IMG/VR virus record: IMGVR_UViG_3300021519_000041
Location: 1-31,554 of that record
Strand: one strand, 5' to 3'
DNA length: 31,554 bases
Origin: a virus
Shown: positions 2,664-30,084 of the stretch, piece by piece
Layout: every line of letters begins with the position of its first letter
Numbering within the stretch: the first letter of the stretch is position 1
The notes under the pieces: generated by a model
Database searches by the model: none
Seen by the model: the letters and a program-made list of their open reading frames with translations, nothing else
What the model was told of the DNA's origin: nothing
Made by a program: the position numbers and the translations under genes

Positions 2664-3146
2664 ATGAAACTATACAAAAACTTTACAAATGACTGGAATG
2701 TACTCTGGACTAGGCTTAATAACCCAGATCAAGGTGTTGATGTTGGTGAGGGCTACACAGTTTGCCGTGATGGTATAGTATTAACATTGCGTGTCTCACC
2801 ACGAAACACTGCTATTATGCGAGTTCATCCAGATGCTACAACTTGGTGTTGTGGTGTAATGCAACTTGGTAATTTCTGGGAAATGAGATTAGCAACACCA
2901 GTTCCTGATGCAGTATTAGACGAGTATTTCAAAATCATTGCAAGTACATGTCGTAACATGTTCCGTAAAGGTATTATACAAGCATGGTTCTATAAACAAC
3001 CAAGAGCAACAGAGTTCGAACATCCTAACATCCGTAAAATGTTTATCAAAAACGGTATGCGTAAGATTGGTCGTTCAACTTTCAATCCTAACTCAGGCAA
3101 TCATATTCAAGGCTATCAAGCCTCATTACCAAAAGGGAGCAACTAA
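2664..3146 (+). CDS. Unknown protein (160 aa), possibly GNAT-like
   Basis: The 160-residue product is not firmly recognised. Its C-terminal third (around HPNIRKMFIKNGMRKIGR, about 117-134) resembles the helix/strand ending of GNAT acetyltransferases, in which a small residue run after HP is followed by a 'neighbour-of-last-strand' G-(F/M)-(K/R) segment. The expected acetyl-CoA loop (R/Q-x-x-G-x-G/A) is not visible, so this is only a hint. The gene sits just upstream of the amidoligase cassette and overlaps the next ATG by one base (TAATG). Confidence 0.7.
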   Translation: MKLYKNFTNDWNVLWTRLNNPDQGVDVGEGYTVCRDGIVLTLRVSPRNTAIMRVHPDATTWCCGVMQLGNFWEMRLATPVPDAVLDEYFKIIASTCRNMFRKGIIQAWFYKQPRATEFEHPNIRKMFIKNGMRKIGRSTFNPNSGNHIQGYQASLPKGSN

Positions 3147-3460
3147 TGGCTATAAATAAAATATGGCTCGTAACTAAACTCCCACACGATAACACAGAGG
3201 GTGAAACCACTCGACGTCGTGCAGCTACTAATATTCTAGTAAGTCTGGGTGTTTCAAGCGGTATTACATTTGAACGAGATGATGCCATCAAACTGTATTA
3301 CACAACAGAAGCTGACGCTATTCGTTCGTGTGAACACCTAGCAACTAAAAATCCAATGACTCCATATGCTGTCATGGCAATCTCAACAATTCGTGAAACA
3401 GGCGTTCCACAAGTTATTACCAAATCATTTACTAATGAAGGAGAACTTGTAATTGTCTAA
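3146..3460 (+). CDS. Hypothetical protein (104 aa)
   Basis: The family is not recognised. The 104-residue product looks alpha/beta, starting with MAINKIWLVTKLP and with two probable helices. It overlaps the upstream stop by one base and its own 3' end by 8 bases with the TTG start of the C26-type hydrolase; the GAAGGAG that serves that start lies inside this gene. This places it at the head of the amide-chemistry cassette, although its own role is unknown. Confidence 0.7.
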   Translation: MAINKIWLVTKLPHDNTEGETTRRRAATNILVSLGVSSGITFERDDAIKLYYTTEADAIRSCEHLATKNPMTPYAVMAISTIRETGVPQVITKSFTNEGELVIV

Positions 3461-4070
3461 ACTTAAAATCCTAGCAACAGTCCCACTGGGTACAGGAGTA
3501 GCTCGTGAAATTAAAGATCTTTTTGATATTACTATTCGTTGGACTCCTGACGCTGAGTATGATGCTATTCTTTTTGAAGGTGGTTCAGATATACATCCTT
3601 CATTATATAACAATCCAAATACCCACAGTCATGTAAACGATACACCATCAAGACGTGATGAAATTGAAGTAACAGCAATGAAAGATGCTATTCAAAAGAA
3701 AGCATTAATTATTGGTATATGCCGTGGAGCCCAATTAGCATGTGCCTTAGCGGGTGGTAAACTAGTTCAACATGTCAATCATCATGGCGGATCACATAAT
3801 GTTCTGACAGAAACTAATGAATCATTTCTAGTATCTAGTGTACATCATCAACAAATGTATCCATGGGAAGTTGATCATGAATTATTAGCATGGTCAGCAG
3901 AAAGTGATATCTATTTAGGTCATGAAATTAATGAAACAAATGCATACAATGAACCTGAAGCTGTCTTCTTCCCTAAAATTAACGCATTAGCATTTCAGTG
4001 GCATCCGGAGTGGGCAGCATCACCTGAAGAGCTTGACTATACTATTAACCAAATTAAGGAAAAGTTATGA
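3453..4070 (+). CDS. Class I glutamine amidotransferase-like hydrolase (peptidase C26 type)
   Basis: This predicted cytoplasmic amidohydrolase (205 aa) belongs to the gamma-glutamyl-gamma-aminobutyrate hydrolase/peptidase C26 group of class I amidotransferase folds. The signature pieces are GGSDIHPSLY (43-52), the nucleophile elbow IIGICRGAQ (86-94, Cys90), and FQWHPEW (181-187, His184 and Glu186), completing the Cys-His-Glu triad. These enzymes cleave gamma-glutamyl amide bonds or deliver ammonia. It starts at TTG 3453: GAAGGAG (3437-3443) sits nine bases upstream, and the first in-frame ATG lies beyond the GGSD motif, so no ATG start is possible. It is followed by an amidoligase with an ATGA overlap, which suggests it either supplies ammonia or trims a gamma-glutamyl product. 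Confidence 0.88.
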   Translation: MSKLKILATVPLGTGVAREIKDLFDITIRWTPDAEYDAILFEGGSDIHPSLYNNPNTHSHVNDTPSRRDEIEVTAMKDAIQKKALIIGICRGAQLACALAGGKLVQHVNHHGGSHNVLTETNESFLVSSVHHQQMYPWEVDHELLAWSAESDIYLGHEINETNAYNEPEAVFFPKINALAFQWHPEWAASPEELDYTINQIKEKL

Positions 4071-4906
4071 GCATAGAAGCCATGTACAATCTTGAACCTG
4101 CGGAACTAAATATTATTCAAGCAATGTTATCAACAGATACAGACTACGTTCGCATTGGTTCAGATCCTGAAACATTCTTAAAAGACAAAACAGGACGCTT
4201 TATATCATCTGTTGGTCTTATTGGTGGTAGTAAAGATGCTCCAATGTCTATTGGTAATGGTTGCTCTGTACAAGAAGACAATGTAACTGTAGAATTTAAC
4301 ACACCTCCAACCAACGACGTAGAGGAATTCGTAAATGTCATCAACTTTAATCTTAACTGGATTACAAAACGTGCTGCTGAGCTTGATCTCACTGTTGTTT
4401 TTGATCCAAGTGCTGAATTCGATGATGAACAGCTTAATACCAAAGCCGCTCAAACTTTCGGATGTGATCCTGATTTTAATGCTTGGAATTACGGTGCAGC
4501 TAATGCTAAGCCTCGCACTAAAAACAAGCATTTACGATCTGCTGGCGGTCATATTCATATTGAAGCTCCGCACTTGGATAAACTGGCACTCTGTCAAGCG
4601 ATGGATCTATTCGTCGGTGCGCCTATGTTAAGATTTGACACAGATACACGACGTCGTGAGCTTTACGGCAAAGCAGGTGCATATCGTCCAAAGGAATATG
4701 GTATTGAATACAGAACAGCATCGAATGCGTGGCTACAAAGCGACGAAACAAAGAAATGGGCGTTTGAACAAACTCAAAAAGCTGTTAGATTCGTGGAAGA
4801 AGGCAAGGTCATCACACCAGAACTCGGCGACTTGATACAAACAGCAATCAACACATCAAACGTTAATTTAGTACCAGACATTGAACATTGGGCAACTAGT
4901 TTATGA
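4067..4906 (+). CDS. phiEco32-type amidoligase (COOH-NH2 ligase, type 2)
   Basis: This 279-residue member of the glutamine-synthetase-fold amidoligases would join a carboxylate to an amine with ATP. Visible motifs are a SDPETFL segment (32-38), QEDNVTVEFNTPP (69-81) with the acidic metal ligands expected in strand 1-2, GGHIHIE (160-166), a basic run DTRRRELYGKAG (193-204) and YGIEYR (211-216). This order matches the phiEco32-like amidoligase-type 2 family as I know it. It overlaps both neighbours by four bases and sits between a Cys-triad amidohydrolase and an unknown protein. The acceptor and donor are unknown; family context suggests peptide or cell-wall peptide modification. The assignment is strong and the substrate is open. 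Confidence 0.88.
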   Translation: MSIEAMYNLEPAELNIIQAMLSTDTDYVRIGSDPETFLKDKTGRFISSVGLIGGSKDAPMSIGNGCSVQEDNVTVEFNTPPTNDVEEFVNVINFNLNWITKRAAELDLTVVFDPSAEFDDEQLNTKAAQTFGCDPDFNAWNYGAANAKPRTKNKHLRSAGGHIHIEAPHLDKLALCQAMDLFVGAPMLRFDTDTRRRELYGKAGAYRPKEYGIEYRTASNAWLQSDETKKWAFEQTQKAVRFVEEGKVITPELGDLIQTAINTSNVNLVPDIEHWATSL

Positions 4907-5499
4907 ATCCTAATCAGATATTTGAAGACTTTGATCGTAAATATCAAGGTAGTTTTGTCCAAGTATCGTTTAAAGGTGAAGAACCAAGCTTATTTCAACT
5001 TGTTAAAACTACAAATGGACCTAAATTCCCTAAATTAGAGCTAAAATCTGATAAAGTAGGTACAATTGTGCTTAATTATAACACAAGTGCACGCATCTTC
5101 TTTAAAATGCCACAAACAACTTACATCCAAATCGAGAAAGATGCAAACTTCTTCACCCGAAGACCTGAACGTCAATGGAAAAGAGGTATTCATCAAAACA
5201 ATTGTGGTGTATTTAGTCCACTTAACATATATACAGCTAGACGGGATTTACGTATTGTAGACTTTAATACAATTAGAGCAGCTTTTAATCCAGTATATTC
5301 AACATTTAGCAACGCAATGGACATGCTCAATAACAAAGGTTACAACGGTGTTGCATTATCTCGTAACCTAGCTATTCTTAATCCTAAAAAAGCAGGATAT
5401 GTCTTATTTTACAGGTTTGCACCTATTGGAACTGTAACAAAAGACGGTAAAATCAGTTGTAATGGCTTTGAGGAGGTACTTACTGATGAAATTAAATGA
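4903..5499 (+). CDS. Unknown protein of the amidoligase cassette (198 aa)
   Basis: I do not recognise a domain. The 198-residue product has an N-terminal part with alternating strands (about 15-75), a central basic segment TRRPERQWKRGI (about 85-96) followed by a lone Cys at about 101, and a helical part around FSNAMDMLNNKGYNG. There is no membrane segment. It lies between the two amidoligases, with an ATGA overlap upstream and a 14-base overlap downstream, so it is almost certainly part of the same pathway, perhaps a substrate or scaffold. The gene contains AGGAGG at 5471-5476, which is the ribosome binding site of the next gene. Confidence 0.75.
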   Translation: MNPNQIFEDFDRKYQGSFVQVSFKGEEPSLFQLVKTTNGPKFPKLELKSDKVGTIVLNYNTSARIFFKMPQTTYIQIEKDANFFTRRPERQWKRGIHQNNCGVFSPLNIYTARRDLRIVDFNTIRAAFNPVYSTFSNAMDMLNNKGYNGVALSRNLAILNPKKAGYVLFYRFAPIGTVTKDGKISCNGFEEVLTDEIK

Positions 5500-6337
5500 A
5501 CGTAACGACTATCCTAAACTAAACATCAACAAAGATATCAAAGAACCACTAAATACTCAAGGGTTCAATTATTATAGCATGCCCTTAACAGGTGTTGAAG
5601 TTGAAGTTGAAAACTTTACAACTCAGCTTGACCCTCTGCCAAGTCACAGCTGGCGTGTTGAGACAGATGGGTCATTACGTAATCGTGGCGTAGAGTTTAT
5701 CTCAAAACCAACAGAACCAAAACATATTGAATCTGCTATTACTTATTTATTTGATGACATCTTAAATCAAAGAAATCATTTTAGTCCTCGGACAAGTATT
5801 CATGTACATTTAAATTGCCGTGAATTAACATTTGATCAAGTCTATAACATTGTAATCTTATATCAATGCTTTGAAGATCTTTTATATAGCTTTGCCGGTC
5901 CAGAACGAAAGAAATCTATCTTCTGTATTCCTGTTGGCAACACAGATTATTATAATGCACTTAAAACATTAATGAAAGCAGAAACTTTACCAACATGGAG
6001 CAAATATACAGGCTTAAATCTTGGACCACTCCGTGAGTATGGTACTATCGAGTTCCGTCATCTGCGTGGTACTCGTAATAAATTTGTAGTATTTGATTGG
6101 CTTCACATCTTATATAAACTATATACCTTTGCAATCTCACTAGAAACAGAAGAACTAGAAAAACTTATTCATAATACAACAGTCTCTCATGATTACTTTG
6201 GTCTTGGCTACGCAGTATTTGGTACTCATTTTCTAACATTAACACGTGACGCTTCATATGAAAAAACAATGAAAACTGATATGACTATTAGTAGATTATT
6301 TAGCTATAAAAAACCTAACTTAGAAGGATACATCTGA
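5486..6337 (+). CDS. Second amidoligase (Amidoligase_2-like)
   Basis: This 283-residue protein shows the pattern of the glutamine-synthetase-like amidoligase_2 group: GVEVEVEN (36-43) with alternating acidic residues, DGSLRNRGVEFISKP (61-75), SIHVHLNC (104-111), and YGTIEFRHLRG (185-195) with the Glu/Arg pair near the C-terminal half. It is only distantly similar to the upstream amidoligase, so the cassette carries two ligases of the same fold. The start at ATG 5486 is chosen because AGGAGG (5471-5476) lies nine bases before it; an in-frame ATG at 5462 has no such site. Its stop overlaps the next ATG (TGATG). Confidence 0.85.
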   Translation: MKLNERNDYPKLNINKDIKEPLNTQGFNYYSMPLTGVEVEVENFTTQLDPLPSHSWRVETDGSLRNRGVEFISKPTEPKHIESAITYLFDDILNQRNHFSPRTSIHVHLNCRELTFDQVYNIVILYQCFEDLLYSFAGPERKKSIFCIPVGNTDYYNALKTLMKAETLPTWSKYTGLNLGPLREYGTIEFRHLRGTRNKFVVFDWLHILYKLYTFAISLETEELEKLIHNTTVSHDYFGLGYAVFGTHFLTLTRDASYEKTMKTDMTISRLFSYKKPNLEGYI

Positions 6338-7719
6338 TGTGTGGAATTGTTGGTCTTATATCAAAGACCCCTACAGGTCTCTACCATAGCGACTTAGACT
6401 TATTTGAAGAATTACTAATGTGTGACAGTGTTCGTGGTCTTGATAGCACTGGAGCCTTTGGTATCCATAAAAACAAACAAGCTAAAGCCTTCAAAGTAGC
6501 TGCTGCTCCAACAGAAATGTTTCGTTGCGAAGAGTGGGGCGATTTTCGTAACAAAGCTATAAGTAGTATGACAACATTAGTAGGCCATAACAGGTCTGCA
6601 ACACGAGGTGCTGTTAACTCCGAGAATGCACACCCTTTTCATGAGGGTAACATCATGCTCGTACATAATGGCACATTACATAACCATAAAGACTTTAACA
6701 AAGATGTGGAGGTTGACAGTCATGCAATTACCCATGCTTTTAATGAACGACCAGCAAAAGAAGTACTTAAAGAAATCAATGGAGCTTTCACCTTCGTGTG
6801 GTATGACAGACGTGTCGGACGATTGTTCATTGCCCGTAACAATGAAAGACCACTTGCGTATGTCGAAACGAGCAGCAATATTATATTTGCCAGTGAAGGG
6901 CCTATGTTGGACTGGATTTTAGGTCGTAAATCAAGTACATTCCCTAAAGCACAATCCTTCCCAGTTGGTGAATTAATCTCGTTTGATGGTAAAGGTGTAA
7001 AAACATCTGAACCCTTTGAACTATATACCCCAAAGCCTATCGGGAATACGAATATGACAGTTACAAGTCCTTACGGGCAACAAAGCCGCTTGCCTCTCGT
7101 TGGTATGACGAGGACAGTCTCTACCCTTTCTGTTAATGATCGTATTCCCGCAGGTACTAAAGTATTAGTAAAAGTTGATGAACTTATGCAAAACTCTATT
7201 CAAAACGGAACAATTCGCTTAAAAGGTAAGATGCTATATCCAAACAACAAAACGGATATCGCAGGCTATCTCGCTCGAGACTTAGATATTGCAGATGCAT
7301 ATCAAATGATTCGTTTACCTTATGTCGAAGGTACTGTACATAACTATCACTCGTCTAATTGTGGTGCTAGCTATTTCATTAATAACATTTGTTTTCCAGA
7401 AATGATTAAAGTTCATAATACATCATTACCAATAGTTATGTGGCAAAACATAGCTAATAACCACAAATGTGATAAGTGCGGTGGGAAGATCAGCCATCAT
7501 CAACCTGATTTTACTAGCGTTAAACTTAAACACACTTCAAACAAACTTAGAGTAGTCTGTGCAGACTGCGTCAGCGAGGCATTTAGTGAAGCGACAGAAA
7601 AACAACAAGCAGCTATCATCGAAAGTAGCTCTAACCCTATATCGAAGGGGCTCTCGATCGGCAAGAGCACTGATAGCTGGGCTTTCGCAAAGTATCCAGA
7701 AGCGTGTGCTTATCATTAG
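6337..7719 (+). CDS. Class II glutamine amidotransferase with C-terminal zinc knuckle
   Basis: The protein (460 aa) begins MCGIVGLIS, so Cys2 becomes the N-terminal nucleophile after Met removal, as in PurF/GlmS-type Ntn amidotransferases. GHNRSATRG (83-91), VHNGTLHN (109-116) and DSHAI (127-131) complete the glutamine site. The domain ends near residue 225. The middle (about 240-370) has no recognised domain. A CxxC...CxxC pair (Cys378, 381, 408, 411) forms a probable zinc ribbon, followed by a polar tail. It would release ammonia from glutamine for a partner ligase; no phosphoribosyl or sugar-isomerase domain is visible, so the partner is likely one of the neighbouring amidoligases or the ATP-grasp. 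The 3' end overlaps the next gene by 14 bases. Confidence 0.88.
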   Translation: MCGIVGLISKTPTGLYHSDLDLFEELLMCDSVRGLDSTGAFGIHKNKQAKAFKVAAAPTEMFRCEEWGDFRNKAISSMTTLVGHNRSATRGAVNSENAHPFHEGNIMLVHNGTLHNHKDFNKDVEVDSHAITHAFNERPAKEVLKEINGAFTFVWYDRRVGRLFIARNNERPLAYVETSSNIIFASEGPMLDWILGRKSSTFPKAQSFPVGELISFDGKGVKTSEPFELYTPKPIGNTNMTVTSPYGQQSRLPLVGMTRTVSTLSVNDRIPAGTKVLVKVDELMQNSIQNGTIRLKGKMLYPNNKTDIAGYLARDLDIADAYQMIRLPYVEGTVHNYHSSNCGASYFINNICFPEMIKVHNTSLPIVMWQNIANNHKCDKCGGKISHHQPDFTSVKLKHTSNKLRVVCADCVSEAFSEATEKQQAAIIESSSNPISKGLSIGKSTDSWAFAKYPEACAYH

Positions 7720-8389
7720 GCAAGATCGTGTCCATCTACTTAAACCTACTAGATTTATTATTAACTGGGGTAGCAGTGAGCCTTTCAATAACATACCATA
7801 TTGTCGTATTTACAATAATCCTGATAATGTACGCCTTGCTAGTAATAAGTTGTTTACTTTTAAGCAGTGGCGTCGTCATGGGGTATCATGTCCTGAATGG
7901 ACGGAAGATATTAATGAAGCTAAAGACTGGCTGGAACATAATCAAACCGTATTTTGTCGTACTCTGCTTCAGTCTCATAGTGGCGATGGTATTGTTATTG
8001 CCACCACTCCTACTGAGCTTGTCAGGGCACCTCTATATACGAAATATATAAAGAAAAAGAAAGAGTTTCGTGTCCATGTATTCAACGGTAAAGTTATTGA
8101 TGTACAAGAAAAAAGACGTAGTAATGATGCATATAACAGTAGCTTTCTTATCCGCAATCATGCTAGCGGCTTTGTGTTTTGTCGTGACAATGTTGTCGAA
8201 CCAACCGATCTCAGAGACACAAGTCTTAAATCTGTTGAAGCACTAGGTCTGGATTTTGGAGCAGTTGATATTGTATGGAATGAACATTATGACAAATGTT
8301 ACGCTCTAGAAGTAAATTCAGCTCCAGGTCTTGAAGGTACAACACTACAAAAGTATGTAACAACTATTAAGGACTTAGCATATGGCTAA
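7706..8389 (+). CDS. Small ATP-grasp ligase
   Basis: This 227-residue ATP-grasp protein has an N-terminal WGSS segment (21-24), a flexible glycine loop CRTLLQSHSGDGIVIA (84-99), a basic strand YIKKKKEFRVHVFNGKVIDV (114-133), FGAVDIVW (184-191) and the metal-binding LEVNSAPGLEGTT (201-213). These match the RimK/YheC-like superfamily that ligates an amino acid or peptide through an acyl-phosphate. I start it at GTG 7706 because similarity to ATP-grasp begins just after it; no ATG is available and the Shine-Dalgarno is weak, so an upstream GTG (7559) inside the amidotransferase gene cannot be excluded. It closes the enzymatic part of the cassette. Confidence 0.85.
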   Translation: MLIIRQDRVHLLKPTRFIINWGSSEPFNNIPYCRIYNNPDNVRLASNKLFTFKQWRRHGVSCPEWTEDINEAKDWLEHNQTVFCRTLLQSHSGDGIVIATTPTELVRAPLYTKYIKKKKEFRVHVFNGKVIDVQEKRRSNDAYNSSFLIRNHASGFVFCRDNVVEPTDLRDTSLKSVEALGLDFGAVDIVWNEHYDKCYALEVNSAPGLEGTTLQKYVTTIKDLAYG

Positions 8390-8669
8390 CAATCTATTCT
8401 GGCGTCGAGAACGTGAAGGTGTTGTTGAAGTAGGGCTTACAGATGACGCCTTTGCCTTATTTGGACAACTATGGGCTATCATCCCAACTAACGAACGTAA
8501 ACGTAACTATACTACCGGTGATGCTATTGTATCCATTGAAGGCTCGGACTCCTTAGGCAACATCACCATGGACTTTCCAGTACGTAAAATTACATTCAAT
8601 GGTACTGCTCTAGAACGCCCTGATGAAATGAATACCAACTCACCATTATTCTTTGCAGAGGCCACATGA
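8382..8669 (+). CDS. GcvH/lipoyl-domain-like protein without the lipoyl lysine
   Basis: The 95-residue product resembles glycine cleavage H protein over nearly its whole length: VGLTDDAFALFGQLWAIIP (17-35) corresponds to the VGIT-x-A-x-x-x-L-G-D region of GcvH, and GDAIVSIEGSDSLGN (46-60) to the hairpin that in GcvH reads E-S-V-K-A. Aligned this way, the modified Lys is replaced by Asp (EGSD). The following strand, ALERPDEMN and the final hydrophobic strand also match in order. It therefore has a hammerhead fold but probably no lipoate or biotin. It overlaps the ATP-grasp gene by eight bases, with AAGGA eight bases before the ATG. A binding or carrier-like structural role in the cassette is inference. 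Confidence 0.65.
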   Translation: MANNLFWRREREGVVEVGLTDDAFALFGQLWAIIPTNERKRNYTTGDAIVSIEGSDSLGNITMDFPVRKITFNGTALERPDEMNTNSPLFFAEAT

Positions 8670-9209: not shown

Positions 9210-9406
9210 GTGAACTATACAACTTAAAACGTGGTGATAAATTTATTATTACTAATCTAAATGTAAACATCCCCCCAGCTGCACCTGTACCTGATGCAGC
9301 TATAACATATACCTACACACACGTTGATGGTATGTATGCTCCTTGTCAAGGCAGTGATGGAGAACGTTATTACTTTGCAGCATGGACAGAAGTGGAGAAA
9401 GTATGA
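9206..9406 (+). CDS. Hypothetical protein (66 aa)
   Basis: The start at ATG 9206 is chosen for its ATGA overlap with the upstream stop; an in-frame ATG at 9191 inside the upstream gene is less likely. The 66-residue product is probably beta-rich (KRGDKFIITNLNV, then TYTYTHVDGMYAPC and GERYYFAAW), the look of a small SH3-like or OB-like barrel. The family is not recognised. Confidence 0.65.
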   Translation: MSELYNLKRGDKFIITNLNVNIPPAAPVPDAAITYTYTHVDGMYAPCQGSDGERYYFAAWTEVEKV

Positions 9407-9576
9407 GATGTTTATCCTGTAATTGTGTATTAACAGACTTTGAAGCAACACGCAAAGGCGTAAACACAGGTGAATACATTGATATGTGTAACCGATGTTT
9501 TGCAACTATTGCAGATGATATTATGGTTCTTGAACGTGAAGACTTAAAGGAAGATAGCGATGACAACACAAACTAA
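9403..9576 (+). CDS. Small zinc-ribbon-like protein (57 aa)
   Basis: The start at ATG 9403 overlaps the upstream stop (ATGA), with GGAGAAAG just before it. The 57-residue product has CLSCNC near the N-terminus (Cys3, 6, 8) and MCNRCF in the middle (about residues 28-33), giving two CxxC knuckles about 24 residues apart, a likely zinc ribbon. The C-terminal third is acidic (EREDLKEDSDD). Small zinc-ribbon proteins in phages often bind nucleic acid or host RNA polymerase; no specific role is shown here. Confidence 0.65.
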   Translation: MRCLSCNCVLTDFEATRKGVNTGEYIDMCNRCFATIADDIMVLEREDLKEDSDDNTN

Positions 9577-10006: not shown

Positions 10007-10707
10007 TGGCAACCTTTTTACAACATGAAGCATGTCCCAAATGTGGGAGCAAAGATAACCTTGGAAGATACTCAGATGACTCAGCATACTGCTTTGGATG
10101 TGGCTACACTGAAAAACGAAGTCGATTCACTCCACCAACAGATAGATTGCCTGAAGAACCATCAATCCGACTACCAAAAGATGCAAGCACTGTTATTGGT
10201 GTGGCTGGAAAATCGTGGTTAGGTAAATATGACATAACTGTTGAAGAGCAACAACGCTATCGCATGCTATGGTCGGACTCCCGGAGACAATTGATCTTCC
10301 CGCTCTATAGTAAAACAGGCGACTTAGCAGCTTGGCAAGGCCGTAACTTTGACCCAAAAGCCACCGGAAAATACTTCTCACAAGGTAAAATCCATGATCT
10401 ATTGTACTTTTGTGGTAAAAAAGGCTCACCTGTCATTCTTGTAGAAGACCTCCTCAGTGCGATTAAAATAGGTAGAATGAGTATAGCTATGCCCTTATTC
10501 GGGTCAGAGGCTTCTACACCCCTTTTAATGCGTTTAAAAGGACATTGTAGCTCTATCATTACCTGGTTAGACAGCGATAAATGGAGAAACTCCCAAGATA
10601 TCGTAAAACGCTCGCAGTCCATAGGATTGCCAGCAATGTCAGCGTACACTAACTTAGATCCTAAAGAATATAATACGGATCAAATAAGATACTTCTTGAC
10701 AAAGTAA
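10006..10707 (+). CDS. DNA primase (zinc finger plus Toprim, T7 gp4-like N-terminal half)
   Basis: The 233-residue protein begins with a zinc-binding domain, CPKC (10-13) and CFGC (29-32), as in the T7 gp4 and DnaG primases that select the template start site. A core follows with LIFPLYSKTGDLAAWQGR (96-113), and a Toprim domain with VEDLLSAIKIG (146-156, Glu147) and TWLDSDKW (186-193, Asp189 and Asp191), which bind the catalytic Mg2+. It synthesises RNA primers for lagging-strand replication in the cytoplasm. Unlike T7 gp4, the helicase is a separate gene just downstream, under its own promoter. It lacks any motif beyond Toprim. Confidence 0.9.
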   Translation: MATFLQHEACPKCGSKDNLGRYSDDSAYCFGCGYTEKRSRFTPPTDRLPEEPSIRLPKDASTVIGVAGKSWLGKYDITVEEQQRYRMLWSDSRRQLIFPLYSKTGDLAAWQGRNFDPKATGKYFSQGKIHDLLYFCGKKGSPVILVEDLLSAIKIGRMSIAMPLFGSEASTPLLMRLKGHCSSIITWLDSDKWRNSQDIVKRSQSIGLPAMSAYTNLDPKEYNTDQIRYFLTK

Positions 10708-10724
10708 CAATACTATGGTATAAT
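10696..10724 (+). promoter_or_regulatory. Consensus sigma70-type extended -10 promoter
   Basis: TTGACA (10696-10701) and TATAAT (10719-10724) are both exact consensus hexamers with an ideal 17-base spacer, and TGG directly before TATAAT makes an extended -10. The expected transcription start, about seven bases downstream of TATAAT, falls at or within a base or two of the helicase ATG at 10731. The promoter lies across the end of the primase gene. It should be read by unmodified host RNA polymerase. Confidence 0.88.
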
Positions 10725-12628: not shown

Positions 12629-13750
12629 ATGAAAGTAATATGCTTTGATATTGAATGCACTATTTCAAATAAAGGACAACCTTTTGACACTACCAACAAA
12701 TTGGTATCTGTCGCTTGGACTGATGGCACTACTAGCCATTGTACAACGCCTGAAAACCTGGCACCATTCCTCACAGATTTACAATGTGCTGACATACTTA
12801 TCGGCTTTAACATCAAGTTTGACATTAATTGGCTTCGTCGTTACGGTGTTTCTTTTGATGACAAACGTGTCTATGACTGTCAACTTGCCGAGTATATTAT
12901 TAGACGTCAGCGTATTAAGTATCCTAGTCTCGCTGGCTGTCTGGAGACTTACGGATTGGACGGTAAGCTCGATATCGTTAAAGAGGAGTATTGGAAAAAG
13001 AATATCGACACTGATAAAATCCCTTGGGAAATCCTTGCCAGATATAACATAGTAGACGTAGAACAAACGTTTAAAGTCTATCAACTACAACAAGAACTAC
13101 TGAGTCCATTACAAAAGCGACTAGTTGCACTCTGTTGTGCTGATCTAATGACTCTTCAAGAAATGGAGTTCAATGGACTCCCAGTTGACTTAGAACGCTG
13201 TCAACACAAATCTACTGAGATACTAAAAGAAATAGCTATTGTGACTAATGAGCTAGCCTCTAAATATCCTCATGTCCCGATCAACTTCAACAGTACAGAT
13301 AATCTCTCAGCCTTTCTATATGGCGGTACAATTGAAGAAGAACGGCGAGAAGTAGCAGGCCTGTATAAAACAGGAAATAAGATTGGTCAACCAAGATTCC
13401 GCATCAACCGTATTGAACATACTCTTGCTGGTCTAGTTAAACCAATCGAAGGATCAGAACTTCAGAAACCTGGCATGTACTCTACATCGGAAGACGTCCT
13501 AAAAAAGATAAAGGACAAAACCGGAGTGATTGCTAACTTACTGAAACTAGCAGGGCTTACAAAGATCAATGAATTCTTTGAAGGCTTCATGCGTATACAC
13601 AAAGATATGAATTGGCCACCAAATCGGATTCATGGTCAATTTAATCAAGTAACTACATGGACTGGTAGGTTGTCTTCTACCAAACCAAATCTACAAAACA
13701 TGTGTCCTGAAATTCAGGAATGTGTAAGGAGCGAATATGGGCAAACTTAA
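12629..13750 (+). CDS. DNA polymerase I family, N-terminal part (3'-5' exonuclease and thumb)
   Basis: This 373-residue protein is the first part of a family A DNA polymerase. It has the proofreading exonuclease motifs FDIEC (6-10, Asp7 and Glu9), FNIKFDINWL (60-69, Asp65) and YNIVDVEQT (139-147, Asp143), then the thumb region (LMTLQEMEFNGLPVDL), and ends shortly after TGRLSS (345-350) and PNLQNMCPEIQECVRS (353-368). The palm motif A that normally follows within about 20 residues is missing here and starts a separate gene 207 bases downstream. The last four or so residues come from the overlapping next gene. The two halves together total 617 residues, close to the usual phage size. Confidence 0.9.
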   Translation: MKVICFDIECTISNKGQPFDTTNKLVSVAWTDGTTSHCTTPENLAPFLTDLQCADILIGFNIKFDINWLRRYGVSFDDKRVYDCQLAEYIIRRQRIKYPSLAGCLETYGLDGKLDIVKEEYWKKNIDTDKIPWEILARYNIVDVEQTFKVYQLQQELLSPLQKRLVALCCADLMTLQEMEFNGLPVDLERCQHKSTEILKEIAIVTNELASKYPHVPINFNSTDNLSAFLYGGTIEEERREVAGLYKTGNKIGQPRFRINRIEHTLAGLVKPIEGSELQKPGMYSTSEDVLKKIKDKTGVIANLLKLAGLTKINEFFEGFMRIHKDMNWPPNRIHGQFNQVTTWTGRLSSTKPNLQNMCPEIQECVRSEYGQT

Positions 13751-13973
13751 ACAAGCAATGATCATCTCAGAGGAATTAGCTGCTGTAGCTGCAGAATCTT
13801 GGGAGCACACAGTAATGTCTAACGTCAACGAATACATCGGAATTCATGGCGCCTCTGTCTTTAAAGATGCCCTTATGATGTTCAATCGAGATGCGTATGA
13901 CAAACTCTTTCATCCTAAAGAAAGTCCTAAGACATGTGCACTAACTGAAACTAAAAATGCTCATCCAAGCTGA
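13737..13973 (+). CDS. Unknown protein inserted between the two polymerase genes (78 aa)
   Basis: The gene has its own strong ribosome binding site, AAGGAG (13726-13731), five bases before its ATG, and overlaps both polymerase parts by 14 and 17 bases. All three genes are in different frames. The 78-residue product has a helical N-terminal half (KQAMIISEELAAVAAESW) and no HNH, GIY-YIG or LAGLIDADG motif, so it does not look like a homing endonuclease. It has no recognised family. It may be a small polymerase accessory or the remains of an inserted element. Confidence 0.7.
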   Translation: MGKLKQAMIISEELAAVAAESWEHTVMSNVNEYIGIHGASVFKDALMMFNRDAYDKLFHPKESPKTCALTETKNAHPS

Positions 13974-14691
13974 TGCAAAAGCCCTCGAATGGTGGACAGC
14001 TGTATGGTTAAGTCAAGACAAGACAGGGATTTCCGAGATAGTAAACGGTATCGATCTACACACCGAAAACGAAAAGACCTTCGGCTTACCATCTCGCCTT
14101 ATTGCCAAGAAGTATCTATTCAGGACAATCTATCGTGGGTCTGCGTATGCTTTTGCAAAAGATCCAGAGTTTGCGGCTACAAGCTCATCCATAAAGTTCT
14201 GGGAAGGCATCGGAGACAAGTTCTTCTCGAAGTACGCCGGTCTAAACGCAAAGCACAAAGAATGGGCAAAACTAGTAGCCCATGGTAAACCAATCATTGG
14301 ACCACAAGGCAGGGAGTGGTTCTTCGATATGAAACGCAACTTCCGTGGAGAATTAGAAGTACCATGGACAACACTAACCAACCATCCCGTACAAGGAACT
14401 GGTCATGACATTATGGCAATCATACGAGTATCGTTCTTCAACCGTCTAAAAAAACAAAAACTACAAGCTAGACTAATAGGTACGATTCATGACTCTATTC
14501 TGGTTGACACACCAGAAGAGAACGTAGATGCTGTAGTAAACTTATTTGAGTCTTGCTTCGCAGACATGCCTGACAATTTCAACAGGATGTTCGGAGTTAA
14601 ACCAAATATACCATTAGCATGTGAATGCTCAGTAGGTCCAAATATGAATAACTCTGTTGAGTATTATTCACAATACAAAAAAGAAAGGTAG
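13957..14691 (+). CDS. DNA polymerase I family, C-terminal part (palm and fingers)
   Basis: This 244-residue protein begins MLIQADAKALEW, that is, directly at motif A (Asp6, Glu11), then motif B RLIAKKYLFRTIYRG (47-61: Arg47, Lys51, Phe55, Tyr59) and motif C TIHDSILVD (176-184, His178-Asp179). These carry the catalytic metals and dNTP contacts, so the protein holds the polymerase active site but lacks exonuclease and thumb. It has to work with the 12629-13750 product as a split enzyme. Its ATG has only a weak ribosome binding site, so translation probably depends on coupling to the intervening gene. The next gene starts three bases after its stop. Confidence 0.9.
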   Translation: MLIQADAKALEWWTAVWLSQDKTGISEIVNGIDLHTENEKTFGLPSRLIAKKYLFRTIYRGSAYAFAKDPEFAATSSSIKFWEGIGDKFFSKYAGLNAKHKEWAKLVAHGKPIIGPQGREWFFDMKRNFRGELEVPWTTLTNHPVQGTGHDIMAIIRVSFFNRLKKQKLQARLIGTIHDSILVDTPEENVDAVVNLFESCFADMPDNFNRMFGVKPNIPLACECSVGPNMNNSVEYYSQYKKER

Positions 14692-21400: not shown

Positions 21401-21816
21401 TATGTAGCAGCAGTCTGTGAGGTTAGTAAACCATCTGTAAACGTCATACTACCATTAGCACCTGCAAGAGTCAACTTAGCAGTTGTAATTGTTACAGACA
21501 ACCCACTCGGTACGACTACTGTGTTTGTAAGTGTACCACCAACATAACTTAAACCAGTACCAATCGTTACGTTTTGAAACTCACCTGACCCATTACCAGC
21601 AAGAATAGAAGACCCAATAGGTTGTGCTGGTACTCCTAAATTATTACGAGCACCTGCTGGACTTACTGCTCCAGTACCCCCTTGAAGAATACCAATTAAT
21701 ACATTACCAAGTTGAACTTGTTGAATGTACCCTCCTAAATTACGAAACCATTCACGCCAATTATGGCCTTCTTTAATTTCATCTTGAGGAATAGGAGGTA
21801 AGTTATTAGCCGCCAT
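21400..21816 (-). CDS. Small tail-fibre/baseplate-like protein (138 aa)
   Basis: The 138-residue product has a polar N-terminal part with NWREWFRNLGGYIQQ (19-33), then LQGGTGAVSPAGARNNLG (44-61), the GGTGA-x-x-x-x-x-AR-x-NLG motif found in many phage tail-fibre proteins. The rest is Gly/Thr/Ser-rich beta structure (GTGLSYVGGTLTNTVVV) typical of trimeric fibres. It is short for a host-binding fibre and may be a fibre tip, adaptor or truncated fibre. It lies one base from the ATP-grasp gene. Confidence 0.7.
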   Translation of the reverse strand: MAANNLPPIPQDEIKEGHNWREWFRNLGGYIQQVQLGNVLIGILQGGTGAVSPAGARNNLGVPAQPIGSSILAGNGSGEFQNVTIGTGLSYVGGTLTNTVVVPSGLSVTITTAKLTLAGANGSMTFTDGLLTSQTAAT

Positions 21817-23144
21817 TATTCATAATCCAAGTCAGGACAATAGCCATGCTCATGAAGCAATGGTAATTGTTTTTCAAGACGACAACCAATATCAGTACGA
21901 TACATAATACTATTTGGTATCTCAATCTTTTGTTTTATTGTTTTGTATGCACGATCACGAGCTACTTCGACAGTAGAGCCAGTACCACTAACAGTACAGA
22001 CATAGTCCCCAGCAGTAACGTACATAGGTACATTTTGTTTGACCTCTCCGTCAACCATGCATGGACCTTTTCCCCATTGTACTTCAGAGAAATGAATGTT
22101 TGTAATAGCATCTTCTTCATCTACACCCCATAAAGGATAACCAGAGTTTTCTTTTTTAGTTATTTGACTATAAGGATAGTCAGGGATAGCAATAACAACG
22201 CCAACAGCCACCTGTCCACTGACTTTGAGAGTGTCTTCTCCGTTAAGTAAGTCAAGCATCCATTGAGCAGGATCACCTTTGTGCAACGCTTGTTGGATCT
22301 GAAACAACGGCCAGCCCGGGCGCATAGTAAACTCAAGCGGCCAAGGAGTGCCATCTCTATCAATGATACAATTAACGTCAACATAACCTGTATATCCTAA
22401 CCCATGTAAATAATCTTCAAGTGGCTTTAGAACTCTATCAGCCAATAAAGAATCTTGTGTATAGCGAACAACAGTTCCTTGCTCACCAGTAGCTACTCCA
22501 AGATCGTCGTTCATTAGTTTCTTAAACTCAAAACTCTCACACCAGTATTTAGAAAAACCACAAGTACCAAACCAACCACCTACTCCAAACTCAGTACCAG
22601 CATGAAACTCTTGGAGAATAAAGTCACCTTTATATGCTTTCTTTTTCTTCCAATACTGTAACATGTATACCATATCAGCGGCAGTCTTAGAGACATATGA
22701 CATAGACTTAAGACCGTCACCTATTGGTTTTGATACATACCGTTGTGGATTATCTATAACAAACTTAATAGCTTCATCATAGTTAGAGAAACGAGTACTA
22801 GGTATAATTTTAATACCGGCCTTCTCCATGACATCTGCACCATGAGCACGATCAAGTTCCCATTTAGCAGTGTCAATTGAAGGACCAAAGATTGGATAAC
22901 CTTTATCTCTATAGCGTTCCAGACCATGTATATAAAAGATATTGTCTGTACAGAACACAAGGTCTGCCCAGTTCATATACTTTTCCCACTCTGATACACG
23001 GTCAATAATACCGTCACCAGATTCATTACGAGAACCATCTTTGTGATGTCTAATAAACGTCTTTACTTTATGCCCATAAACCTGACACCGTAGCGCAAAG
23101 TCTAGACACCCATTACCACCAGCATCAATGATTAGTATATTCAT
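21816..23144 (-). CDS. PurD-like ATP-grasp ligase in the late operon
   Basis: The 442-residue protein has a Rossmann-type start (MNILIIDAGGNG), the PIFGPSIDTAKWELDRA segment (84-100) shared with PurD, YVSKPIGDGLKS (136-147), LQEFHAGTEFGVGG (177-190), and YVDVNCI with PLEFTMRPGWP (254-279), the metal/ATP site. It resembles phosphoribosylamine-glycine ligase, but the C-terminal part differs and the usual acidic DPE of PurD after the R-x-G is replaced by W-P. It probably ligates an amine to another carboxylate. It is the second ATP-grasp in the window and sits among virion and lysis genes. AGGATAA precedes its ATG. Confidence 0.85.
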   Translation of the reverse strand: MNILIIDAGGNGCLDFALRCQVYGHKVKTFIRHHKDGSRNESGDGIIDRVSEWEKYMNWADLVFCTDNIFYIHGLERYRDKGYPIFGPSIDTAKWELDRAHGADVMEKAGIKIIPSTRFSNYDEAIKFVIDNPQRYVSKPIGDGLKSMSYVSKTAADMVYMLQYWKKKKAYKGDFILQEFHAGTEFGVGGWFGTCGFSKYWCESFEFKKLMNDDLGVATGEQGTVVRYTQDSLLADRVLKPLEDYLHGLGYTGYVDVNCIIDRDGTPWPLEFTMRPGWPLFQIQQALHKGDPAQWMLDLLNGEDTLKVSGQVAVGVVIAIPDYPYSQITKKENSGYPLWGVDEEDAITNIHFSEVQWGKGPCMVDGEVKQNVPMYVTAGDYVCTVSGTGSTVEVARDRAYKTIKQKIEIPNSIMYRTDIGCRLEKQLPLLHEHGYCPDLDYE

Positions 23145-29146: not shown

Positions 29147-29500
29147 TCATTTCCCTTCTATTAGAACGTTATCAATCTTATTTATATCCGTCTCATCTGT
29201 TGCATGTATGCAATACCATATTGAATCTTCAAGAGCTTCAATGGAATGATGTACGTGTTTTGTTATTTCTAGACAGGCTGGTGCAGTATACTCTACAGTT
29301 GAGTTATCTGTTTTAACAATTACTTTTCCCTTAGACAAAATACTTAAATGACTATATGCATGTGCATGTGTGACAGCCATAAACCCTTTAGGGATATGCA
29401 TTTCTTTTGTATACAATCCATCAGAAAAATGATGTACGGTACCTAAGTCACATTCAAAGACACCATTTAGGCTTTCATGTAGATCTTTAATTGTTTTCAT
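29147..29500 (-). CDS. Cupin-fold protein (117 aa)
   Basis: The 117-residue protein is a single cupin barrel: IPKGFMAVTHAHAYSHLSIL (36-55) provides His45, His47 and His51 in the first cupin motif, SKGKVIV the glycine turn, and EITKHVHHSIEAL (78-90) the second motif with one or more metal His. It probably binds Fe2+ or another divalent metal; without the Glu of the classic first motif it may be a sensor or dioxygenase variant. It is translationally coupled (four-base overlap) to a 2-oxoglutarate oxygenase-like gene, suggesting a joint modification step in virion production. Confidence 0.8.
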   Translation of the reverse strand: MKTIKDLHESLNGVFECDLGTVHHFSDGLYTKEMHIPKGFMAVTHAHAYSHLSILSKGKVIVKTDNSTVEYTAPACLEITKHVHHSIEALEDSIWYCIHATDETDINKIDNVLIEGK

Positions 29501-30084
29501 TCTTTACCAGCTCCTGCTACTTTATCTGATCGAATACAAACAATCATTGCAATTCGATCTTCATTACTATGATTCTCAACCCAATGTGGGACAGAATTAT
29601 CAAACCACCAAGCATCGCCTAGTTGTGGATAGATGATACCATCATTAAAATTGAAGGTTGCACCAGGTGCATTCTGAATAGGAATATAATACTTATCATA
29701 ATACTCGGCATGCCAGCCAGTATCTATGTGAGGTTCAATTCGTCCGCCAGGAGGGATCTTTGTAATGAGAACAGCACCTAGCCGTTCGCCTTGTACTAAA
29801 GCCATTAACGCAAACACAATAGGTCTTATTTGTGGTAAAGCATAATATGCTGGATACCACTCTGCCTCATGCTCGTCATTAAATCCTGTAAAATCTCCTG
29901 CTTCAAGATACTTATCAATCTTGTTATAACGTACCCAAATGTCAGTCATGTTTGTATGAGGTGACTCACCATAACCTGCTTGTCTAAAAGGGTACTTACC
30001 AAATAACTTTGGTTGACGTTTAAGGGCTAATTGTAATGGTAATACATCAAAGCCACATGCTATCTTTGCAAACGATTCACTCAT
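29497..30084 (-). CDS. Aspartyl/asparaginyl beta-hydroxylase-like oxygenase
   Basis: The 195-residue protein has RIEPHIDTGWH (115-125) with the H-x-D iron ligands His119 and Asp121, then GDAWWFDNSVPHWVENHSNEDR (156-177 region) with His167 as third ligand and Arg177 for the 2-oxoglutarate carboxylate. This is the pattern of Asp/Asn beta-hydroxylases (PF05118 type), Fe(II)/2-oxoglutarate enzymes that hydroxylate protein side chains or small molecules. It lies between the gp10-like tail gene and the cupin in the late operon, so a virion protein or envelope component is a plausible target; this is inference. TAGGAAA precedes its ATG. Confidence 0.82.
   Translation of the reverse strand: MSESFAKIACGFDVLPLQLALKRQPKLFGKYPFRQAGYGESPHTNMTDIWVRYNKIDKYLEAGDFTGFNDEHEAEWYPAYYALPQIRPIVFALMALVQGERLGAVLITKIPPGGRIEPHIDTGWHAEYYDKYYIPIQNAPGATFNFNDGIIYPQLGDAWWFDNSVPHWVENHSNEDRIAMIVCIRSDKVAGAGKE

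Follow-up and report, generated by a model that had tools for sequence, protein, structure and literature searches.

A phage amide-bond cassette with a C26-type hydrolase and a lipoyl-less H-protein fold, and its possible gamma-glutamyl chemistry

The 31,554-bp IMG/VR virus fragment IMGVR_UViG_3300021519_000041, an incomplete phage genome analysed over its whole length and termed here the window, carries a cassette of seven genes at positions 3453-8669, all on the plus strand. By sequence comparison, this is a version of an already known phage cassette, set apart by a C26-type hydrolase and a GcvH-fold protein that has no lipoyl lysine. It may encode, with a probability of about 0.5, a cytosolic and probably early pathway for the formation, amidation and cleavage of amide bonds of the gamma-glutamyl type. 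The composition, order and overlaps of the genes, their conservation and their intact catalytic residues are direct observations on the sequences. A first-pass annotation of the DNA had given domain identities for the seven genes, and these are confirmed by the open reading frames and by Pfam, PHROG and NCBIfam searches (E-values in brackets):

3453..4070, plus strand: C26-type (class I glutamine amidotransferase-like) hydrolase, 205 amino acids (Pfam PF07722, 2e-18)
4067..4906, plus strand: phiEco32-type COOH-NH2 ligase (PF14395, 1e-10; phrog_3815, 3e-68)
4903..5499, plus strand: protein X, 198 amino acids (a weak PHROG match alone, phrog_11055, 7e-9)
5486..6337, plus strand: Amidoligase_2, a ligase of glutamine-synthetase-like fold; longest open reading frame 5462-6337 (PF12224, 6.5e-6; phrog_7469, 1e-39)
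6337..7719, plus strand: class II (Ntn) glutamine amidotransferase, 460 amino acids (GATase_6, 1e-21)
7586..8389, plus strand: RimK-like ATP-grasp ligase; longest open reading frame from GTG 7559 (phrog_2599, 2e-78; rimK_fam, 1e-10)
8382..8669, plus strand: GcvH-fold protein, 95 amino acids (PF01597, 0.006, below the curated cut-off; NF002270, 4e-4)

Each gene overlaps or abuts the next. The overlaps are 4 nt between the C26 and COOH-NH2 ligase genes, 4 nt between the COOH-NH2 ligase gene and X, 1 nt between the amidoligase and amidotransferase genes and 8 nt between the ATP-grasp and GcvH-fold genes. Judged from ribosome-binding sites and homologue starts, the amidoligase most likely begins at ATG 5486, with GAGGAGG upstream, which gives a 14 nt overlap with X, and the ATP-grasp most likely begins at GTG 7586. 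From that GTG, the ATP-grasp frame opens inside the amidotransferase gene with an overlap of ∼134 nt, and a like overlap is found in two relatives, Alcaligenes phage vB_Af_QDWS535 (locus L002) and IMGVR_UViG_3300020694_000009 (L003). The start codon of the COOH-NH2 ligase is uncertain, most homologues starting near residue 22-28.

A profile search of IMG/VR, phage and GTDB loci gave 182 distinct COOH-NH2 ligase loci, 114 of them with enough flanking sequence. All four enzymes (COOH-NH2 ligase, Amidoligase_2, class II amidotransferase and ATP-grasp) are present in 111 of these 114. Among 50,697 phage records the enzymes occur in near-equal numbers per host genus (COOH-NH2 ligase 312, amidotransferase 331, ATP-grasp 312, amidoligase 324). 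As the gene set recurs in hundreds of phages, the cassette is not a chance assembly. The four genes are found in six orders among the 162 loci that have all of them, although related phages share gene order and these counts are therefore not independent events. Amidoligase and amidotransferase genes adjoin in 152 of the 162, both orders being found, and no fusions between cassette enzymes were found. A cellular origin was also considered and rejected: the GTDB scan yielded only 16 contigs of metagenome-assembled genomes, the informative ones bearing phage-type cassettes and several of them phage replication genes, and it revealed no cellular operon of known function.

The first-pass annotation had read the genes as a linked amide-bond system. 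That reading is correct, and the neighbours are indeed conserved as a set, but the phage literature already has a description of the set and a name for it. A seven-gene "peptidoglycan modification cassette" was reported for the RIO-1/HP1 group, with phiEco32, 7-11, PA11, tf, LUZ24, PaP3 and CW02 listed as further carriers (PMC5498523). In UFV-P2 (PMC3890496), tf (PMC3517423) and RIO-1/HP1 (PMC5498523), the annotated components are COOH-NH2 ligase, amidoligase, class II amidotransferase, ATP-grasp and gamma-glutamyl cyclotransferase (GGCT), together with a hypothetical protein. In the phiEco32 relative SU10, ATP-grasp, amidotransferase and a YtfP/UPF0131 (GGCT-family) protein were detected by mass spectrometry and classed as early products (PMC4281155). 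It has been proposed as a hypothesis that the cassette modifies peptidoglycan and thereby blocks superinfection (PMC5498523, PMC10580990); for this, PMC5498523 cites Iyer et al. and Hardies et al. 2013. Hundreds of sequenced phages carry the cassette, among them common ones of Pseudomonas aeruginosa and E. coli.

Applied to the window, this hypothesis states that unusual stem-peptide linkages, in the gamma-D-Glu-mDAP region, alter the wall and exclude superinfecting phages. It is a specific end use within the gamma-glutamyl pathway, and as such is possible rather than probable. Gamma-glutamyl bonds do occur in stem peptides, and the cassette is found in phages of many hosts. On the other hand, no experiment on it was found in the literature searched, and no sequence feature ties any cassette enzyme to UDP-MurNAc peptides. 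The cassette amidotransferase also has no synthetase domain, whereas LtsA/AsnB, a known wall-amidating enzyme, has one.

This amidotransferase displays the hallmarks of class II (Ntn) enzymes: a Cys directly after the initiator Met, glutamine-binding Arg and Asp residues and an NG oxyanion motif. C2 is present in 86 of 89 homologues (the other three have gaps), and R86, N111, G112 and D127 are conserved too. Matches to the asparagine synthetase, GlmS and PurF families cover only the N-terminal ∼190 residues, and no synthetase, isomerase or phosphoribosyltransferase domain was recognised in the remainder. The C-terminal domain carries instead the zinc knuckle that had been proposed from the DNA alone and that proves real, its four cysteines (C378, C381, C408 and C411) being kept in 56-67 of the 89 homologues. 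A second short amidotransferase-domain gene follows the amidoligase gene in five loci (L027, L051, L062, L072 and L095).

Loss of catalytic residues was not seen in the cassette enzymes at the level of sequence. The COOH-NH2 ligase conserves D33, E35, D71, E76, H162, H164, E214 and R216, and Amidoligase_2 displays E46, E48, D69, E78, H114, H116, E197 and R199 (numbered from 5462). In the ATP-grasp, K97, E169, R171, K185, D237, E251 and N253 are conserved (numbered from 7559). This protein matches RimK-type ligases in the PDB at 4e-8 and rimK_fam with 41 bits, against a cut-off of 143.

Protein X sits between the COOH-NH2 ligase and amidoligase genes in 108 of the 162 loci. Its AlphaFold2 model is of high confidence (pLDDT 93, pTM 0.86), and no Pfam, PDB-sequence or PDB-fold match that would make it a known enzyme was found (best PDB E 0.17). 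Good matches are found in other phage proteins, among them the CW02 protein H9D1D2 (4e-8), taken here as the X gene of the CW02 cassette. As modelled, protein X is a cassette-specific phage fold without a PDB match, described here as new.

Of interest is the hydrolase at the head of the cassette. Its catalytic triad, C90, H184 and E186, is present in 70 of 70 homologues, and an HHQ motif of C26 type lies at residues 131-133. In Pfam, C26 scores above class I amidotransferase for this protein. The nearest solved structures by profile are Lin1909 (1e-23), 7d4r, a "probable glutamine amidotransferase" (4e-18) that is presumably Pseudomonas SpuA, and PuuD (8e-13). The top NCBIfam match, gamma-glutamyl-CDP-amidate hydrolase, reaches 40 bits, far under its cut-off of 250. 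The protein is thus probably a gamma-glutamyl hydrolase rather than an ammonia-supplying class I amidotransferase. Of the two amidotransferases originally proposed, the class II enzyme stands; the C26 protein is closer to the gamma-glutamyl hydrolases PuuD and Lin1909, and the pair is therefore better described as a single amidotransferase alongside a gamma-glutamyl hydrolase. A C26 protein 41% identical to that of the window is also encoded by the uncultured human-gut phage cr108_1 (MT774385, 83051-83602).

The published cassettes carry GGCT. A home-built profile did not find it in the 31.5-kb window, a genome fragment from which its absence from the whole phage does not follow. Evidently, to judge from the loci compared, GGCT is not a defining member of the cassette: C26 is present without GGCT at the locus in 44 of 111 loci, with both in 29, GGCT only in 33 and neither in five. 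GGCT is encoded elsewhere in the genome for four of these five, and after that correction the association gives a Fisher p of 4.5e-10. At least one of the two is found with 110 of 111 cassettes, the sole exception (L137) being a 22-kb fragment. Whole-record Pfam scans of 50 cassette records detected C26 in 36 and GGCT in 22. With one further record, L044, counted as C26-bearing (its C26 gene is truncated at the end of the contig), nine of the 50 have both, 28 C26 only, 13 GGCT only and none neither (Fisher 1.4e-6), such that every record that lacks C26 carries GGCT. Neither p-value takes kinship into account. The tree shows about five changes in C26, at least four of them forced by supported branches. 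Five loci in related, cassette-free phages have C26 or GGCT in none, too few to weigh.

These counts are suggestive of C26 and GGCT substituting for each other, a relationship new in this analysis. With the caution that the lineages are not independent of one another, the near-universal presence of one or both also suggests that the pathway includes a step in which gamma-glutamyl bonds are cleaved. It narrows the likely chemistry to gamma-glutamyl bonds.

A second matter of interest is the last gene. Alone, the GcvH-fold protein has only its weak Pfam match (0.006), but profiles of three and of 16 sequences match PDB H-proteins at 5e-6 and 1.3e-5, respectively. Its AlphaFold2 model (pLDDT 92) has as its top 22 PDB fold matches H-proteins or complexes that contain one (best E 5e-5, TM 0.80). 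Profile and model together argue for a real H-protein fold. The position of the lipoyl lysine, residue 56, is D in the window protein and, among 18 homologues, D in 13, R in two, E in one, Y in one, L in one and K in none. As the lysine of the ESVKA-type motif is missing from all 18, the protein is not a lipoyl carrier; the carrier-like character first assigned to it survives as a fold, without the cofactor. A metabolic carrier fold has here clearly been reused with its cofactor site missing.

The gene is not confined to this contig. Homologues were missed by tblastn on the 50,697 phages and by a single-sequence IMG/VR scan and were found only with profiles; they occur in 19 loci, and in all 19 the ATP-grasp gene is followed, within the cassette, by this gene. 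In Alcaligenes phage vB_Af_QDWS535 it is an unannotated open reading frame at 14333-14617, directly after the ATP-grasp.

This neighbourhood bears on the idea that the cassette modifies proteins, in which a host or phage protein, perhaps the GcvH-fold protein as acceptor, receives glutamate or a different residue from the RimK-like ATP-grasp, and C26 or GGCT takes it off again. The closest families of the ATP-grasp are RimK alpha-glutamate ligases, the two genes are constant neighbours, and in 14 of 18 homologues an acidic residue, D or E, stands in the place of the lipoyl lysine. However, the C-termini of the GcvH-fold proteins are not conserved, the acidic residue is not universal, and most cassettes have no such protein. 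Protein modification is considered unlikely. Still more improbable is a gamma-glutamyl relay in which the lipoyl-less H-protein is a scaffold or acceptor for the ATP-grasp ligase, which would be a new carrier-protein-like route of peptide conjugation during infection.

For the gamma-glutamyl pathway as a whole, the following steps are envisaged. The COOH-NH2 ligase and the RimK-like ATP-grasp would each form an amide bond with ATP, and Amidoligase_2 and the class II amidotransferase would act as a glutamine-dependent amidating pair. By analogy, the gamma-glutamyl group would be removed or recycled by C26 in the window and by GGCT in other cassettes. No catalytic role is envisaged for protein X or the GcvH-fold protein; the latter might serve as a subunit for docking or for presenting the substrate. 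The likeliest end use would be the published one, modification of the stem peptide of a peptidoglycan precursor against superinfection. The present data argue for gamma-glutamyl chemistry alone; the target may be a peptidoglycan precursor, a small gamma-glutamyl metabolite or a host protein.

The same enzymes could instead make and turn over a soluble metabolite. Glutamine-synthetase-like ligases, ATP-grasps, GGCT and C26 are enzyme classes of glutathione and gamma-glutamyl-polyamine metabolism. A glutathione-like compound or a gamma-glutamyl-amine might be built by a GshA-like step of the COOH-NH2 ligase and a GshB-like step of the ATP-grasp and turned over by C26 or GGCT, for redox, nucleotide or nitrogen economy. 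In phage ZRK32 these genes have been interpreted as nitrogen and amino-acid metabolism (PMC10945688), and a glutaredoxin gene lies just downstream of the RIO-1 cassette. The glutaredoxin is a single case, however, the ATP-grasp best matches RimK-like rather than glutathione-synthetase-like enzymes, and glutathione needs no class II amidotransferase. This explanation is regarded as doubtful.

Several points weigh against the gamma-glutamyl pathway. The C26 protein might be a glutaminase. For the complementarity of C26 and GGCT the tree offers about five independent changes, and a phylogeny-aware independent-pairs test of the exchange had too few pairs and was not significant (median p 0.5). The GcvH-fold gene is limited to the clade of the window and so is not essential to the pathway. 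No tested feature connects the cassette with peptidoglycan, and neither an experimental test of the cassette nor a tested product was found in the literature searched.

Two small genes flank the cassette:

3146..3460, plus strand: small conserved open reading frame that overlaps the C26 start (relatives in 33 loci, duplicates still in)
9382..9576, plus strand: small four-Cys zinc-finger-like protein (downstream of the cassette in 61 loci, duplicates still in)

The rest of the window encodes a helicase, a primase, a split family-A polymerase, endonuclease I and ribonucleotide reductase. Phages are known to modify bases with amides and amines, and the cassette might attach an amino-acid or amide group to a DNA base. 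In the window, however, genes for a base hydroxymethylase, a base kinase or a similar enzyme were not noticed, and native DNA of phage tf was sequenced and cut by HaeIII (PMC3517423), which leaves DNA hypermodification a very improbable explanation.

The polymerase is encoded by two open reading frames at 12629-14691 (plus strand), with a 78-amino-acid frame between them. As its first part is of similar length in locus L109, the split seems to be a conserved one, like that of LUZ24-like phages. A perfect sigma-70 consensus, TTGACA-17-TATAAT with TG before the second hexamer, lies at 10696-10724 (plus strand), at the end of the primase frame and just before the helicase gene. On the minus strand, a PurD-like (phosphoribosylamine-glycine ligase) ATP-grasp of 442 amino acids is found at 21816-23144 in the late structural region (TIGR00877, 4e-25; GARS_C), and a cupin and aspartyl/asparaginyl beta-hydroxylase-like pair at 29147-30084 among late genes.

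Among known systems, the published cassette of RIO-1/HP1, phiEco32, 7-11, PA11, LUZ24, PaP3, tf and CW02 shares the same four enzymes, in many cases X, and an early-region location upstream of primase and helicase. The window differs in that it has C26, that GGCT was not found within its 31.5 kb and that a GcvH-fold gene is added after the ATP-grasp. The gene order of the window, including C26, X and the GcvH-fold frame, recurs in vB_Af_QDWS535 (OK172329); GGCT is also present there, and the proteins are ∼26-55% identical by BLAST, the GcvH-fold protein 22%. In IMGVR_UViG_3300020694_000009, all seven genes and the two small flanking ones stand in the order of the window, at 41-64% protein identity, but with an additional open reading frame between C26 and the COOH-NH2 ligase. 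The glycine cleavage H protein and GcvH-L share fold and sequence profile with the window protein, which differs in having no lipoyl lysine and no glycine cleavage partners seen nearby. With respect to chemistry, PuuA/PuuD in putrescine catabolism and BtrJ/BtrG in butirosin synthesis are pairs that attach and remove a gamma-glutamyl group. In these, as in the cassette, an amide ligase is paired with a gamma-glutamyl remover of C26 or GGCT fold; the likeness is one of working principle, as they have no operon in common with the cassette.

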